Shown piece after piece: positions 37,522 to 45,096 of a stretch of DNA of 64,000 bases. Under the pieces are notes generated by a model. That model saw only the letters and a program-made list of their open reading frames with translations. It ran no database searches and had not been told where the DNA came from. The first letter of the stretch is position 1. Each line of letters begins with the position of its first letter. The translations under genes were made by a program, and so were the position numbers. This DNA comes from Metabacillus halosaccharovorans. Its GTDB lineage: Bacteria > Bacillota > Bacilli > Bacillales > Bacillaceae. Where the stretch lies: NCBI RefSeq assembly GCF_002019635.1, contig NZ_KV917371.1, forward strand, positions 124,001-188,000, read 5' to 3'.

Positions 37522-39597
37522 TTAAAATCCCATTATATCCTGAAACTTTTCAGATAATTTTCTTGCTAGTTCATCATCAGATAAAGGCTTGCGATGTGTA
37601 TTTTCTAAATAAATGTATTTTTCAGTTTCAGGCATCACATATTCTTTATACCATAAGAAGAAGTCAGGGCTATCTCCTTGCATTCTAATATATTTTCGCA
37701 ATGCTTCAAGTGAATATAGTGTACTTTTTACATTTGTCAGCCAATCAGCACGATAAAAATGGTTCCACTTTCCATGTTCTGACTTTTTAAATGCCTGCAA
37801 ACTTTCTTGATAAGCCCAAATGGATTCCGACACCTGGACAAATGCAAGTGGATAATGCTGAATAGTGAAACTTTTGTATCCCTTACACAACGAAATAAAA
37901 CCTTTGCAGCCACTTACATGCAATTCTACTTGAGAAACAAAAAGATCATAAAACCTTTGCTTTTCAGAGGTTGAAAGTTTTAATGAAAGTTTATGACATT
38001 TATTTAATAGATTTTCCCAGCCTATTAATCCATCTTGACATTTTTCATAAAACCAATTTACTTGATCAATAAATGGAATTTCACCCGTTGCCCAAAATAA
38101 CTTTTCATTAACAGAGTTCTCTCTATTTTGCAGCCAATGACTAATGATTTTTCTTGCATTGTGATGATAAAATCCCTCACCTGCTCGGTCATCCTCATTT
38201 TGACCATACTTAATTGTTTTTTCAAAGTAGCTTTTGTAGAGCTTGGTCATTTGATCATGATAGCTTAAATAAAATCGCTTTATAAACTGTTGAAGATGTA
38301 CTTCAACATCAACAGTACCATATCTCCATAATTGACTGACTAGATCTAAAGGATAAAGATGCTGACGGATATTACCACTGTTTAATAAAAGATAAGATGT
38401 AGCTCCTGAAGCAAATGATTTTTCAATTTCCTCTTTTATTAATTGAGGTGGAGATGGAAACATGGTTAAATGATTTGATGCCTGAAGATCATGAAATGTA
38501 ACATGATAATAAATTCCATGCTCTCCTGAATCATTTTCGGTTGGCAAAGAAGGAATTCGATAATTTTCGTTTCCCTGTCTCCTTGAAACCATCTTTCCAT
38601 ATCCATTATCTGCCCATATTTTCATTATTTGATCAGGCACATGAATATGTCCTTGTTTATATAACTCCGCGATCTCACCATAAAGAGCCATACTGCAAAC
38701 CGGCTGTTCGATTGCATCACATAACATTTCATATTGCCTGTGAACGACTTTAGAAATCATCGCTCCTCTTTTTTCCGGTGTATCGAATTCCGGGTCATAC
38801 TGCCAAAAAGGTGCATCTCCTTGCCCCCGAAAGGAAAGTACCCAAACAATGTTTTGGTCCTTTTGTTTTTGAATGGCTTCAGTCCATAATGCTTCAAACA
38901 AATCAGGATGTTCTTTATAGCTTGGTTTTTTACCGGTATATGCACGCAAAAACATTTCTGCGCCTAGTGGCTCAGCATGATGATGTGTGACCCATAAACC
39001 CATCTCTGCAGCTAACTCTGCATGAATTCCTGCTTTAGGAAGATCAGTTCCGGGTATCACCATATTCCCTCCACATCGTAATAAGGCTTCAAATACGGGA
39101 TACCAAACCTCTTTAGAAGGTGGGTATTCTTCTTTCCATCCAATTAAACAGACCTCATCATTTACAAACCAGCCTCTATATTTTACTAGATGTTCCTTAG
39201 ATACATAATCTATGGTAGGAATAAGGACTTCCGATTTTTGCTCAACATCCAAATCTCCCCAAAACCAAAAAGGATCTATATTTAAATATTGTTGGCTATA
39301 ATGTAGTAAGCCATAAACTAGTCCAAGATCGTCATACCCGATTATGTTTAGTATCCATTTTTCATTAATTTGTTGGAAGCGAAAACAAAATGCTTCAGGT
39401 CTTGTAGGACACTCTTTTCCACCTTTTGCATAGTTAATAATAATTGTTGCCTCTTGTTCTGCTGCTGTTTTTAGTATTGGCTGACAGCCAAATATCTTTT
39501 TGTGATCTCTTTTGATCATATCAAGGGCATGTTGGACAGGAGTTGATATTTTCTGAGGAACAGAAATAATACAATTTGCTTTCACGACTACATGCAT
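37522..39597 (-). CDS. GH115-like glycoside hydrolase (alpha-glucuronidase family)
   Basis: A 691-residue cytoplasmic enzyme. An N-terminal alpha/beta domain with YDDLGLVYGLLHYSQQYLNIDPFWFWGD leads into a TIM barrel (YRGWFVNDEVCLIGW, GGNMVIPGTDLPKAG, GLWVTHHHAEPLG, VWVLSFRGQGDAPFW) and an all-helical region. This order resembles family GH115, which removes glucuronic acid from xylan. It lacks a signal peptide and is shorter than most GH115 proteins, apparently missing the C-terminal domain, so it may act on imported oligosaccharides. No other xylan gene is adjacent. Confidence 0.75.
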   Translation of the reverse strand: MHVVVKANCIISVPQKISTPVQHALDMIKRDHKKIFGCQPILKTAAEQEATIIINYAKGGKECPTRPEAFCFRFQQINEKWILNIIGYDDLGLVYGLLHYSQQYLNIDPFWFWGDLDVEQKSEVLIPTIDYVSKEHLVKYRGWFVNDEVCLIGWKEEYPPSKEVWYPVFEALLRCGGNMVIPGTDLPKAGIHAELAAEMGLWVTHHHAEPLGAEMFLRAYTGKKPSYKEHPDLFEALWTEAIQKQKDQNIVWVLSFRGQGDAPFWQYDPEFDTPEKRGAMISKVVHRQYEMLCDAIEQPVCSMALYGEIAELYKQGHIHVPDQIMKIWADNGYGKMVSRRQGNENYRIPSLPTENDSGEHGIYYHVTFHDLQASNHLTMFPSPPQLIKEEIEKSFASGATSYLLLNSGNIRQHLYPLDLVSQLWRYGTVDVEVHLQQFIKRFYLSYHDQMTKLYKSYFEKTIKYGQNEDDRAGEGFYHHNARKIISHWLQNRENSVNEKLFWATGEIPFIDQVNWFYEKCQDGLIGWENLLNKCHKLSLKLSTSEKQRFYDLFVSQVELHVSGCKGFISLCKGYKSFTIQHYPLAFVQVSESIWAYQESLQAFKKSEHGKWNHFYRADWLTNVKSTLYSLEALRKYIRMQGDSPDFFLWYKEYVMPETEKYIYLENTHRKPLSDDELARKLSEKFQDIMGF

Positions 39598-40220: not shown

Positions 40221-42581
40221 TTATAATGGTGCATTTACTTCTAAATCATCTATTTGTTTTTCTACATATTGAACATCTTTACGTGCATTATATCGATCCG
40301 CTTTTTCAACTGTTACAGTAATATTATAATCCGGTATGCCGGCATATTTTTCATATCTGCCTCTTGGGAGTAAAAAGTTCCCTTCAGGAAAGTGTACTTC
40401 AAGGTTTCCGCTAGCAATGTCAACAAATTTCGCTCTACCTTGAAAAACACCAAATCCATTGTAGACAACAATGCCTTCTCCTTCTGCAATACTTATTTGT
40501 TTTGCATCTTCAGCATTCATTAAGACATCATAACGATCAGCTCCGTTGAATGGATCTGTTTCTTTATAAACCATTGAGTTAAATTGTTTACCACGTCGTG
40601 AAGTAACAACAAATTGTCCTTCTTTCTTTCCTAATTCAGGGATCTCCACAGAAATCAAGTTCCCTTTTCCATCAGACGTTGGGCACACTCCGCCTTCACA
40701 AAGCCAGGCTCCACCCCATTGAAATACATCACCTTGTTTTTTTAAGTGTTGAATTCCATTATAGTCACGATTTGCGATTGCAATTTCATCCCTAATTTCC
40801 TGTCCTGATGTAAATTCTACAAGATGAGCTGTTTCAGGCTTAACCCGCTTCGCTAAATCAATATAAATCTTCCATTCTGCACGCGCTTCTTCAATTTCAT
40901 TTTTGTTTCCTTCAATTTGTGGTGAAAAATACACCATACGTTCTGTCGAGGTTGATGTTCCCCCTCCTTCTTGCTCATACCTCGTTTTTGCAGGGAGAAC
41001 AATAACAGCTTCTTTCGCATCAACAAGTGTAGATGTATTCAAAATAATATCCTGGTGCACACGTATATCCAGTTCAGATAAAGCTTTTTCTACAAAATCC
41101 GGATCAGGCATTGTTTCCAAGAAATTACCGCCTGATAAATAATAGAGCTTAATTTTTCGTTCGTGATCATCGGGCAGTACGATGTTTTCTAAGGTAACTC
41201 CTACAATATCTCCCTGCCATTTTGGTAATTCAAAACCCCAAATTTGTTCCATTCGTTTCGCATTCTCTTCGTCAAACCCGCTTCCTGGCAGAACAAATGG
41301 GTCTGCCCCCATCTCTCCTGATCCTTGTACAGAAGAATGACCTCGGAATGGCATTAAACCACTGTTCTTACGTCCAAGATATCCGCGTAAAAGGGCGAGA
41401 TTTGCCACTTGTGAAATATTATCTGTTGCAAACGAATGCATGGTTAGTCCTAAAGCCCAAGCAAAGACTGCATTTTTACTTCTTGCTAATAACTCTGCCA
41501 GCTCTATGATTCTCTCTTTTGAAATACCGGAAGACTTGATGATATCATCCCATGATTGTTGTTTCACATGGTTTACTAAATCTTCATATCCATTTACATG
41601 TTGTTGCACAAACTCATGGTTAATTGCTGATCCATAATGTCTATCTTCCATCTCAAACCAATGTTTCATAATACCATGCATAAAGGCAATGTCCCCGCCA
41701 ATATTGACTTGATAGAAATCATCAGCTAATTTGGTACCAAAAAGGGCTGATTCCATATTTGATGGGATCCAATACTTATCCATTGCCGGTTCGCTATATG
41801 GGTTAACCACGATAATTTTCGTTCCTCTTTTTTTGGCTTCCAGCATATATTTTGTTGATACTGGTGAAGCATTTGAGGCTACACTTCCCCAAAACAGTAA
41901 TACATCAGTGCCAAACCAATCTTGATAATTTGCTGTTGAAGCTCCTACACCAATTGAACGCTTTAACGCTGTTTTACTTGGTGAGTGGCAAATGCGTGAA
42001 GCATTGTCAATATTATTTGTCCCAAGGAATCTAGCTACTTTCCCAGCAACATAATATGATTCATTCGTAATTCCTCTTGAGGTTAAATAAAATGCATATT
42101 GCTTTGGATCCAATTGCTTCATTTTATTTGCAATGATCTCCATCGCTTCGTCCCATGTTAGCCGAGAGAACTTTCTCTCACCTTTACGACGAATAAGCGG
42201 GTATGGAATACGTCCCAATTTTCTTAAGTCTGTGCTACTATATTTTCGTAGTTCATCGATGTCAGCATGAACAACTTCTTCTTTTAAAGCTGGCATTGTG
42301 TTGAGTCTTAATACATTCATTCTCGTTGTACACATATGCGGACCTTTTAACGTCTGATCTTGTAGCCCTGAAACGCCTAAAGCACAGCCATCACAAACAC
42401 CCTGTGTTAGAATACGTGTTGCATATCCAATATTGTCTTTGTTATCCCAAGCAACTTTCATTGTATCTCTAAAATGATGAGGCTTCACCTTGCCTAGTCC
42501 AAATGGAATTGGACTAACCCAGTGCTTTGGCTGAGGTGTTTTTGTCGCTTTTATTGGTCCTTGATGTTTTGTCTCTCCCAT
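40221..42581 (-). CDS. FdhF/YdeP-family molybdopterin oxidoreductase
   Basis: A 786-residue relative of formate dehydrogenase alpha subunits. It has an N-terminal cysteine cluster (GVCDGCALGVSGLQ...MCTTRMN) in place of the classical 4Fe-4S box, then molybdopterin-binding segments (SNMESALFG, GRKNSGLMPFRGHSSVQGSGEMG) and a C-terminal domain with RRGKQFNSMVYKETDPFNGADR. YdeP-type enzymes are cytoplasmic and of unsettled substrate; formate is often assumed. The neighbouring fdhD, moaA and OFA carrier fit. Expression is probably set by the leader at 42690-42765. Confidence 0.87.
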   Translation of the reverse strand: MGETKHQGPIKATKTPQPKHWVSPIPFGLGKVKPHHFRDTMKVAWDNKDNIGYATRILTQGVCDGCALGVSGLQDQTLKGPHMCTTRMNVLRLNTMPALKEEVVHADIDELRKYSSTDLRKLGRIPYPLIRRKGERKFSRLTWDEAMEIIANKMKQLDPKQYAFYLTSRGITNESYYVAGKVARFLGTNNIDNASRICHSPSKTALKRSIGVGASTANYQDWFGTDVLLFWGSVASNASPVSTKYMLEAKKRGTKIIVVNPYSEPAMDKYWIPSNMESALFGTKLADDFYQVNIGGDIAFMHGIMKHWFEMEDRHYGSAINHEFVQQHVNGYEDLVNHVKQQSWDDIIKSSGISKERIIELAELLARSKNAVFAWALGLTMHSFATDNISQVANLALLRGYLGRKNSGLMPFRGHSSVQGSGEMGADPFVLPGSGFDEENAKRMEQIWGFELPKWQGDIVGVTLENIVLPDDHERKIKLYYLSGGNFLETMPDPDFVEKALSELDIRVHQDIILNTSTLVDAKEAVIVLPAKTRYEQEGGGTSTSTERMVYFSPQIEGNKNEIEEARAEWKIYIDLAKRVKPETAHLVEFTSGQEIRDEIAIANRDYNGIQHLKKQGDVFQWGGAWLCEGGVCPTSDGKGNLISVEIPELGKKEGQFVVTSRRGKQFNSMVYKETDPFNGADRYDVLMNAEDAKQISIAEGEGIVVYNGFGVFQGRAKFVDIASGNLEVHFPEGNFLLPRGRYEKYAGIPDYNITVTVEKADRYNARKDVQYVEKQIDDLEVNAPL

Positions 42582-42689: not shown

Positions 42690-42765
42690 AAAAACCACCG
42701 TAGACTCTTATCTTAAAAGGTGCAGAGTATCACGGTGGTTAGTCTTTTGCAGGATCGCTACCAAG
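42690..42765 (-). promoter_or_regulatory. Putative leader RNA with attenuator, upstream of the FdhF/YdeP gene
   Basis: On the minus strand the block GTAGCGATCCTGC plus GACTAACC (42762-42737) runs straight into a terminator: arms 42740-42725 and 42707-42692 (ACCACCGT/ACGGTGGT outer stem), then TTTTTTC. The gene starts about 105 bases later. The same block precedes the terminator in the leader of the OFA carrier (44757-44922), which suggests ligand- or protein-controlled attenuation. The rest of 42582-42905 shows nothing further I can name. Confidence 0.6.
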
Positions 42766-42905
42766 TGCCATACCAGTTATTTTATTTTAATACATACTTA
42801 AGGTTTGGTCATATTATTCAGCTCTTAAACTATTTGTTATATAGTTAGATGAGCTTACGGCGATTATTTTAGAAAACTGTTATTCTATAGCATTCCTCAT
42901 GACCC

Positions 42906-43265
42906 TTATTTAATAAACTTTTGCTGCAGGTCTTCATCAAAAACAAAGATGGACATCCCAAAGTCTCTGTCAATATCGATATCTACAAATAAGTCAACGA
43001 ATTTACAACCTAAAAACTCTTCCATCTCTAGAGGAGGGTTCTTTCTGTAAATTTGTTTTACCATTTCAGTTCTTGCAGATCGTAACGCCTGTTTCCCTTC
43101 ATCTGCACTAGCAATAAATCTTTCGACTGGTGATAGATTGCCTTCCATTTCACAGATTGCCCAGTTTTTACAAAACGTTGTTGTAATTTTACTAGGACCT
43201 TTACCCATGTGCTTTTTTCGGAAAGAGCGAACGATATTACTAAATTCTGCTTCGTACTTGTTCAT
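42906..43265 (-). CDS. DUF2294 / MpsC-domain protein
   Basis: A 119-residue soluble protein of the PF10057 family (DUF2294, named after MpsC of an alkaliphile Na+-translocating system). Typical segments are IVRSFRKKHMGKGPSKITTTFCKNWAICEMEGNLSPVERF and RTEMVKQIYRK. TAGGAGGATATT precedes the ATG. It lies between the OFA carrier and the oxidoreductase on the same strand. Such genes often accompany formate dehydrogenases in Bacilli, and the molecular role is unknown. Confidence 0.8.
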   Translation of the reverse strand: MNKYEAEFSNIVRSFRKKHMGKGPSKITTTFCKNWAICEMEGNLSPVERFIASADEGKQALRSARTEMVKQIYRKNPPLEMEEFLGCKFVDLFVDIDIDRDFGMSIFVFDEDLQQKFIK

Positions 43266-43337
43266 AATATCCTCCTACCCACTAGAGGTTTTAGCATGAG
43301 GTATTTTACCATACCTTATGCATTTGTGGAAGTATTA

Positions 43338-44606
43338 TTATCCTGCTATGGAGTTTTTGGCGTTAGTGTTTTGTTGCTGACGAAGCCGGTTTATATCTTT
43401 ACGAATCACAATAGATACAAGGAAGGCAATGACAAATAATCCTGAGAAAAATGTTAAACTTGTTCCGTAGCTTCCCGTTGTATCCTTCATCCATGCTGCG
43501 AACATTGGACCAGCTAAACCTGCTGCAGCCCATGCAGTAAGGATATAACCATGTATGGCTCCTAATTGCTTAGTTCCAAATATATCTCCGATAAAAGCAG
43601 GAATTGCAGAGAATCCTCCACCATAACAAGTATAAACAACCGCTAACATAACCTGGAATAAAAATGCTTCTGTTGTATGAGGTAACAGAGCGAATAACAC
43701 AATTTGCAAGACGAAGAATGTAGTATACGTATTTGGTCGGCCAATATAATCTGAAATAGAAGCCCAACCTAAACGACCTAAACCATTAAAAATCCCTAAA
43801 ATACCAACAAGTGTTGCTGCTTCTGCTGTAGTAAGTCCAATACTTTCTTCCGCTAACGGCTTTGCAGCAGATAAGATGGCTATTCCACACGTTACATTGA
43901 TGAATAACATTACCCATAAATAATAGAATCGAGATGTTTTAATCGCTTCATTTGCGGTTAATTGTGCTAAATCTTCTTTAATTCGAGAATTTCCCGATTT
44001 CAACTTTGCTTCAAATCCCTTAGGAGCCCAATCAGCAGCAGGCTTTTCTAAATAAAGGGAAGACAAGGTCATAATAATTAAGTAAGATATCCCGAGAATA
44101 TAAAATGTGTTTGCTGTTCCTACAGAATTAATTAACCATTCCATCACAGGACTGGCGATTGCAGCAGCAAATCCAAATCCCATTATCGCAAGACCTGTAG
44201 CAAGTCCCCTCCTATCCGGAAACCACTTAACTAAGGTTGATACAGGTGCAATATATCCTACACCAAGCCCAATACCTCCAAGTACTCCATATGAAACATA
44301 AAGAAAAGGAAGCGATCCTAAATTAATAGCTAATCCAGATCCAATGACCCCTGCTCCAAAGAATCCTGCTGCCAGTAAACCAGCTGCTCTTGGACCGTAC
44401 TTTTCAACAAAATGTCCTAAAAATGCTGCAGATAACCCTAGAAATAATATTGCAATACTAAATGTTAATTGTACTTGAGAAGCACTCCATCCAAACTCCT
44501 CCATTAATGGATTTGTAAAATTACTCCATGCATAAACAGATCCTATGGAAATGTGGATCCCAACTGCCGAAGCGGCAATTAACCAGCGATTTTTTGTTTT
44601 TTTCAT
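43338..44606 (-). CDS. MFS carrier of the oxalate/formate antiporter (OFA) family
   Basis: A 422-residue protein with twelve membrane segments. OFA features are the start GIHISIGSVYAWSNFTNPL, GGIGLGVGYIAPVSTLVKWFPDRRGLATG after segment 4 and YTCYGGGFSAIPAFIGDIFG in the second half. Family members move oxalate, formate and other small carboxylates. Next to formate-linked genes it probably imports formate or oxalate, though substrate is not shown. AGGGGATG precedes the start, and a 340-base leader contains the conserved RNA block. Confidence 0.87.
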   Translation of the reverse strand: MKKTKNRWLIAASAVGIHISIGSVYAWSNFTNPLMEEFGWSASQVQLTFSIAILFLGLSAAFLGHFVEKYGPRAAGLLAAGFFGAGVIGSGLAINLGSLPFLYVSYGVLGGIGLGVGYIAPVSTLVKWFPDRRGLATGLAIMGFGFAAAIASPVMEWLINSVGTANTFYILGISYLIIMTLSSLYLEKPAADWAPKGFEAKLKSGNSRIKEDLAQLTANEAIKTSRFYYLWVMLFINVTCGIAILSAAKPLAEESIGLTTAEAATLVGILGIFNGLGRLGWASISDYIGRPNTYTTFFVLQIVLFALLPHTTEAFLFQVMLAVVYTCYGGGFSAIPAFIGDIFGTKQLGAIHGYILTAWAAAGLAGPMFAAWMKDTTGSYGTSLTFFSGLFVIAFLVSIVIRKDINRLRQQQNTNAKNSIAG

Positions 44607-44756
44607 GTAGTCATCCCCTCATTATATAAAGCCTTATCTATAAATTATTGTAAAGCTTGTGTTTCTACTATTTAAAGATTATTTCAATAATTAAAATGTA
44701 GTTTTTAACATGGATTAAGCCATCTGAAAACATAAAGTACATCATTAAAACAAAGA

Positions 44757-44922
44757 AAACCGTCAATCCCCTAAATAGATAGAAAACAAGGTAACTTCCC
44801 TATCTAAATGGTGATTGACGGTTAGTTTCAAGCAGGATTCGCTACTATTGGACCAACAGTTAATCGCTTTCAATTTTGGAACAATTTGAATCGACGACAG
44901 GGTCGCTATCTCGAATTCAAAA
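44757..44922 (-). promoter_or_regulatory. Putative structured leader RNA with attenuator, upstream of the OFA carrier
   Basis: Minus strand, 5' to 3': a hairpin with outer arms TTGAAT-CGA/TCGATTCAA (44920-44885) enclosing TAGCGACCCTGTCG; a hairpin ACTGTTGG/CCAATAGT near 44860-44845; the block GTAGCGAATCCTGC and AACTAACC (44845-44820); then a terminator stem (44823-44813 with 44768-44758) and TTTTCTTT. A possible extended -10, TGTTACTAT, is at about 44952-44960. The block matches the FdhF/YdeP leader. The carrier starts 150 bases further on. Confidence 0.6.
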
Positions 44923-45096
44923 TGTTACAATATCATGAACTTTGTATCGAAATAGTAACATGTATTCTATTATTCTGCAACAATATTTTTCGATTTTCAA
45001 AGCTTATGCTGTCACAATTGACAAACTTTCATACTTGTTAATGACATAATAATATGATTATATGTAATGTATCTTATAATATAGGTGAGATGGTAA

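Follow-up and report, generated by a model that had tools for sequence, protein, structure and literature searches.

Two genes of a formate locus in the 64,000-nucleotide stretch of Metabacillus halosaccharovorans DNA analyzed here (the window, to which all coordinates refer) are each preceded by a conserved RNA element overlapping an intrinsic terminator. The minus-strand gene order is an OFA-family MFS carrier (43338..44606), a 119-amino-acid protein with a DUF2294/MpsC domain (PF10057; 42906..43265) and an FdhF/YdeP family oxidoreductase (40221..42581; TIGR01701, E=8.8e-246), with fdhD and moaA divergent. In the leaders of both the carrier gene (OFA) and the oxidoreductase gene (fdhF), a composite hairpin competes with a terminator for the same bases, and this terminator/antiterminator part is well supported. 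It is probable, in our judgment, that both leaders are transcription attenuators and that an RNA-binding protein controls them; the DUF2294 protein is the most likely candidate and would bind hairpins with CGANC loops for antitermination. Conservation, covariation, terminator overlap, gene context and co-occurrence with DUF2294 were each established by computation.

Architecture and covariation of the two leaders

A sequence block shared by the two leaders was the starting point of the original prediction, made from the DNA letters and a list of open reading frames. Indeed, the block is present in the fdhF leader (GTAGCGATCCTGC..GACTAACC, 42737-42761, minus strand) and in the OFA leader (GTAGCGAATCCTGC..AACTAACC, 44820-44845, minus strand), in both cases leading into a hairpin and T tract. 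Across the 5.4-Mb genome, the combined block pattern has exactly two occurrences and a reversed control pattern none. In a sample of the family, the exact pattern is found in 17 of 21 genomes sampled from the window's genus (the window included) and in 0 of 59 genomes from five other genera. A scan with the 12-base half of the block, allowing up to two mismatches, returned 13 matches against 8.5 expected, no clear excess over chance.

Each site is a composite hairpin, in which an inner stem ending in AG-[CGANC]-CU is enclosed by an outer stem, with the form GGUnUGG/CUnAACC at fdhF and GUUGGU/ACUAAC at OFA. The fdhF antiterminator (42737..42774, minus strand) pairs GGU(A)UGG/CUAACC, CUU/AAG and GUAG-[CGAUC]-CUGC, while the OFA antiterminator, P2 (44821..44857, minus strand), pairs GUUGGU/ACUAAC around GUAG-[CGAAUC]-CUGC; both assignments come from pairing and covariation. 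The outer stem is replaced naturally by AUUGGU/ACUAAU, by UUUGGU/ACUAAA and, as a whole stem in one locus (L087), by GUUAAUUU/AAAUUAAC. The alternative pairing of UUGG with CUAA, at which the original prediction had hinted, is conserved, and its OFA stem covaries.

Read from the sequence, the first bases of the terminator 5' arm sit within the 3' strand of the outer stem. Based on sequence and folding, the fdhF terminator (AACCACCGU...ACGGUGGUUUUUU, 42690..42740, minus strand) has AACC in common with its antiterminator, and the OFA terminator (AACCGUCAAUC...GAUUGACGGUU-UU, 44755..44823, minus strand) has AAC in common with P2. Leader plus terminator fold with z = -2.15 for fdhF and z = -3.66 for OFA. 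A terminator scan listed neither leader terminator, which we put down to its loop limit of 3-8 bases. In the fdhF leader, the terminator is the default fold (-24.3 versus -6.6 kcal/mol for the antiterminator), and therefore read-through needs help, as expected if a factor is required.

The OFA leader has a third copy of the hairpin, overlooked in the original prediction. This hairpin, P1 (CGA-GAUAG-[CGACC]-CUGUC-G-UCG, 44892..44913, minus strand), was identified by motif and loop-blind searches and by covariation. The motif search, whose expression requires loop G2 and C5, finds P1 in 27 of 27 OFA leaders; the loop-blind search, which accepts any AG-N5-CT hairpin with at least five pairs, finds it in 26 of 27, and the loop reads CGANC in 26 of 26. 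The tops of P1 and P2 are 61-70 nucleotides apart (26 OFA leaders). P1-like hairpins are found also in units that lack OFA: in L069 and L070 the hairpin precedes the DUF2294 gene, and in L095 the fdhF site. A hairpin of this kind stands 68-77 nucleotides ahead of the fdhF site in L068 and L082; for the remaining 35 of the 40 fdhF sites there is none within 500 nucleotides. The loops of the fdhF sites are five-nucleotide CGNNC in 98 of 101 sequences, and those of OFA P2 (n=56) are CGNNNC, CGNNC or a few variants, none of them a six-base loop with A1 and G4. The conserved core is a 13-nucleotide stem-loop in up to three copies per locus, without an aptamer-like junction.

The proposed stems are maintained by compensatory change. 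Cells are paired at 94.4% in fdhF (40 sequences), 95.7% in OFA (27) and 98.1% in P1 (27), and at no more than 66% when the pairing is slid; OFA P2 has 16 two-sided cells in its 27 sequences. We also used a tree-aware null that keeps the tree and the rate of each column, with 101 fdhF, 56 OFA and 57 P1 distinct sequences and 1000 nulls; these sequences were collected with the covariance model R1 (described below), and are hence biased towards the R1 core. The null reached the observed summed G in 27 of 1000 cases for fdhF, 4 for OFA and 1 for P1, and the observed fraction paired in 5, 2 and 0 of 1000. For cells with two-sided change, the corresponding numbers were 133, 3 and 6 of 1000. An R-scape-like scan without prior pairs yielded one significant pair, in P1 (E=0.005); its best OFA pair, an outer-stem pair, was not significant (E=1.5), and it returned none for fdhF. 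The covariation proposed as a check in the original prediction is seen for the proposed stems under the tree-aware null, and in the prior-free scan for a single P1 pair only.

Distribution and co-occurrence with DUF2294

To determine the distribution of the element, we searched 397 sampled genomes of the order, representing 136 genera, with R1, a covariance model of the 38-nucleotide core. R1 finds the element in 72 genomes from 32 genera. In 40 regions from 38 R1-positive genomes plus the window, all 67 R1 matches (E≤5) lie on the same strand as, and 66-597 nucleotides upstream of, FdhF (40) or OFA (27). The fdhF copy often stands directly after the DUF2294 stop codon, within the operon. The exact DNA pattern of the fdhF form led to 75 named stretches, nearly all in genera that we class with Bacillales, among them Metabacillus, Mesobacillus, Cytobacillus, Neobacillus, Halobacillus, Pseudalkalibacillus, Alkalihalophilus, Evansella and Jeotgalibacillus. 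In these stretches, 119 of 121 R1 matches (E≤1) are upstream of FdhF (70), OFA (45), FdhD (2) or DUF2294 (2), and the remaining two are at fragment ends.

Some of the named stretches stand apart. Two records titled Pseudomonas sp. ISL-84 (L212) and Chryseobacterium sp. ISL-80 (L221) hold Bacillaceae-type fdhF loci and look mislabelled. In Bacillus norwichensis (L242) and in L246/L253, an fdhF-form element lies 293-462 nucleotides upstream of fdhD; in L242, fdhF was not found in the 6.3 kb covered, and OFA there is also preceded by an fdhF-form copy. Elements may have been re-used in these cases in front of new genes. Among the named genomes, Alkalihalophilus pseudofirmus OF4 and Cytobacillus oceanisediminis have no DUF2294 gene next to fdhF.

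The gene for the DUF2294 protein lies between the two leaders and was also overlooked in the original prediction. Its product matches PF10057 at 116.4 bits (cut-off 23; Pfam E=8.5e-34), and the family is common, with matches in 289 of the 397 genomes. We defined DUF2294 of the formate dehydrogenase (FDH) type by at least 72% identity to the window protein and FdhF of the same type by at least 67% identity; this FdhF is present in 113 of the 397 genomes. FDH-type DUF2294 is encoded in all 72 R1-positive genomes (33 of 33, 38 of 38 and the window). Among the 41 R1-negative FdhF genomes, three encode it (G104, G206 and G285), and on closer look all three have the RNA, in G104 in front of OFA only. 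All 75 FdhF genomes with FDH-type DUF2294 accordingly carry the RNA, and the protein is kept even where its gene is unlinked (G375, G394 and G396).

The other 38 FdhF genomes lack FDH-type DUF2294, and none has a genome-wide match to model R2 at E≤0.05. In 17 of these, the sequence ahead of OFA or FdhF was read directly; for the other 21 the statement comes from the model search. In 13 of the 17 there is no element, including six with tandem OFA and FdhF (G215, G332, G001, G042, G029 and G022), and the 13 leaders hold a few chance AG-N5-CT hairpins with no CGNNC loop. One genome, G415, has a decayed remnant of the element (R2 on the locus, E=0.0093), where G434 of the same genus has both protein and RNA; the sequence of G413 ends 106 nucleotides upstream and is uninformative. 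The last two of the 17, G441 with a loop-altered copy and G210 with a different hairpin, are taken up below. Both states occur within one genus in five genera, and g31 is a sixth (G104 with, G256 without); four same-genus genomes without the element are also without FDH-type DUF2294. Neither FDH-type DUF2294 nor the RNA is needed for the pathway, since 38 genomes with the same FdhF have neither the protein nor a model match.

The OFA leader has two further candidate features. A probable promoter, TTGCAG-17-TACTAT (44952..44980, minus strand), is suggested by conserved TTGC and TA.TAT columns in 15 OFA leaders of the genus, while a scan with the promoter consensus gave no excess over shuffles. 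A cre-like site, TTGAAAGCGATTAAC, appears to lie between P1 and P2 (44859..44873, minus strand) and is conserved in 15 leaders of the genus, although not in every other genus; judged by the cre consensus, it is a candidate CcpA site. The best NCBIfam match of the OFA-family carrier is the SfMCT L-lactate transporter, and it also matches the oxalate/formate antiport family. The nearest named matches of the locus are M. niabensis EaN21-8 (FdhF 98% and DUF2294 100% identical) and Bacillus sp. J37 (DUF2294 100%, FdhF 99% over the part covered). A gene at 37522-39597, downstream of fdhF, encodes a member of glycosyl hydrolase family 115 (Pfam E 1.2e-62), for which we saw no link to the element. PF10057 has three more matches elsewhere in the window's genome (G000:C1:2866203-2868176), within open frames about 230 amino acids long.

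A proposed reader of the element

Protein-dependent antitermination is the best reading of these leaders because the hairpins are repeated and conserved in their loops, and a small protein travels with them. The binding by DUF2294, the direction of control and the signal are what we infer. Without active protein, the strong terminator would form and transcription would halt ahead of OFA and fdhF. In the presence of an inducing signal, for which formate, weak-acid stress and cofactor status are candidates, DUF2294 would bind the CGANC-loop hairpins and stabilize the composite hairpin, whose outer stem would consume the first bases of the terminator 5' arm and so allow polymerase to read through. 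P1, which lies close to where the OFA leader begins, would offer DUF2294 a second binding site.

Two observations weigh against this reading. A cruder null, which uses wrong inner OFA pairs and moves changes between columns, showed no excess of summed G. In addition, G441, a metagenome-assembled genome that is 91% complete and in which no FDH-type DUF2294 was detected, keeps an element-like leader: the architecture is retained, with a UAUAC loop and a hairpin resembling P1, and R2 applied to the locus gives E=0.017. The latter observation would fit a protein-dependent antiterminator whose binder is encoded elsewhere, with DUF2294 as an accessory of the formate pathway that is gained and lost with the regulon. 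An enzyme accessory might be placed in the operon just as DUF2294 is, and the structure predicted for DUF2294 with high confidence (AlphaFold, pLDDT 93.4) has no clear relative among solved structures. We nevertheless consider another binder unlikely, given that FDH-type DUF2294 and the model match are both gone from the 38 genomes that encode this FdhF, among them some in which OFA and FdhF are in tandem, so that the two leave together, and that a different DUF2294 subtype accompanies leaders with different loops.

These differently looped leaders are found in a second branch, in a genus of 44 sampled species, apparently Bacillus sensu stricto, with a YrhF-like DUF2294 that is 40-45% identical. 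In one such locus (L117), the gene after DUF2294 codes for a transporter of the formate/nitrite family (PF01226, E=2e-81), and the product of the divergent gene is a molybdopterin oxidoreductase that carries a 2Fe-2S domain at its N terminus; we take these genes to be yrhG and yrhE, respectively. YrhF is presumably the B. subtilis member of DUF2294/PF10057, and PF10057 matches were found in the B. subtilis control. The leader of the transporter gene combines a hairpin resembling P1 with a terminator and a possible CUGCUUGAU/GUUAGGCAG antiterminator; the loops of this hairpin are NGNNC in 11 of 11 distinct forms tallied, and one further copy (L190) reads AGUUG. Model R3 finds this leader in 21 of the 44 genomes of that genus and in 4 of 6 of another genus. 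The oxidoreductase leader has GGAnUGG/CUAnUCC around UAGYA-[AGACU, AGGCU, AGAUC or AGAAC]-UGCUA, plus a terminator.

Published work on B. subtilis, cited here and below from excerpts, bears on this branch. The gap between yrhF and yrhE gives rise to a 139-nucleotide 'new sRNA or yrhE leader region' with an Hfq co-purification ratio of 170 (first row of Table 2 in PMC3574147), and therefore a short leader RNA accumulates in cells; judged by gene names rather than by sequence comparison, this RNA would be the same element. Low pH and benzoate raise yrhEFG (PMC2788229), YrhE is a subunit of a formate dehydrogenase (PMC8808070), and the small RNA RoxS also targets the yrhF mRNA (PMC8216469).

Other subtypes have other leaders. 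By eye, OFA and FdhF of G210 (L148, L283), which encodes a 43%-identical DUF2294, have in common a different hairpin, with hexaloops AGGAAA and UCGUGA, before their terminators, which suggests subtype-specific recognition. Also by eye, the OFA gene of G118 (L144/L123), next to a DUF2294 of 41% identity, is preceded by a long leader of its own, which contains hairpins and a terminator and does not resemble the window type. Whether DUF2294 (MpsC) is a previously unrecognized family of RNA-binding transcription antiterminators, each subtype reading its own loop (CGANC for the FDH type), seems to us evenly balanced. PF10057 is widespread and has no known role, and the proposal offers it a function that can be tested; it also adds an RNA class, probably responsive to a protein, that is absent from Rfam 15. 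If the relationship to yrhE and yrhG holds, it can be tested in B. subtilis 168, where, in the excerpted literature above, yrhEFG respond to low pH and benzoate.

The original prediction had proposed an undescribed riboswitch or attenuator in front of the formate genes, with possible small-molecule signals. An undescribed, conserved and covarying type of attenuator RNA is supported; a ligand-binding riboswitch is not. The position in leaders, the terminators and the metabolic context are those of a riboswitch for molybdenum cofactor (Moco), molybdate, formate or oxalate, and competition between antiterminator and terminator is typical of that class. However, no Rfam family matches either leader, the Moco family RF01055 included (the window has 0 gathering hits, and permissive matches scored far below the gathering level), and the 13-nucleotide core, in up to three copies, has no aptamer-like junction. 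The conserved residues occupy the loops of small hairpins that are repeated, and among genomes with the same FdhF the presence of the RNA follows that of a single small protein almost perfectly; we therefore favor protein-dependent antitermination and consider direct metabolite binding improbable. A small-molecule signal (formate, acid or Moco) may act through the protein. Finally, the strong conservation of the block in sequence and the cre-like DNA site in the OFA leader would suit constitutive terminators with a DNA operator whose hairpin potential is incidental, but the two-sided compensatory changes, including the whole-stem swap in L087, the fixed position relative to the terminator arm and the frequent placement of the fdhF copy just after the DUF2294 stop codon make this highly improbable.

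Comparison with known systems

The window protein belongs to the same family as S. aureus MpsC (DUF2294, PF10057), which is named after the MpsAB bicarbonate transporter; deleting mpsC caused no phenotype, and complementation did not require the gene (PMC6689103). YrhF is termed of 'unknown function' in PMC8216469, and RNA binding by MpsC or YrhF is not described in the excerpts of these two papers. In titles and abstracts of the open literature, we found no formate dehydrogenase riboswitch, antiterminator or nearby RNA motif of this kind, and DUF2294 surfaces there only in fungal secretome work; similarly, a word search of the main texts of genome-wide surveys of noncoding RNA found no mention of fdhF, fdhD or yrhE.

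Like the Moco riboswitch RF01055, the element is located upstream of molybdoenzyme genes, but it is much smaller and has no match to that family at any threshold used. The RAT antiterminators of the BglG/SacY/LicT proteins are imperfect hairpins that contain asymmetric internal loops and share bases of their 3' strand with the 5' arm of a terminator. The hairpin of the element is built and placed in the same way, but the element has an extra stand-alone copy, P1; the RAT sequence was compared through the Rfam scan only. No BglG-type (CAT-RBD/PRD) protein is among the locus proteins scanned, a result that covers the locus only.

The target RNAs of ANTAR proteins (EutV, NasR and AmiR) have two small leader hairpins, the second of which excludes the terminator, and the protein recognizes the terminal loops, which are hexaloops with A1 and G4, with linkers of 5-12 nucleotides in eut (PMC3369931, in excerpt). 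An NCBIfam scan of the eight locus proteins, confined to the locus rather than the whole genome, found no ANTAR-domain protein. By its sequence, the OFA leader likewise has two small hairpins, the second excluding the terminator, but these differ from the ANTAR targets in having CGANC pentaloops (or CGANNC), in the 61-70 nucleotides between hairpin tops, and in the linked protein, DUF2294. The proposed mechanism is like that of the ANTAR and RAT systems, but the RNA is a different one and the binder would be DUF2294.
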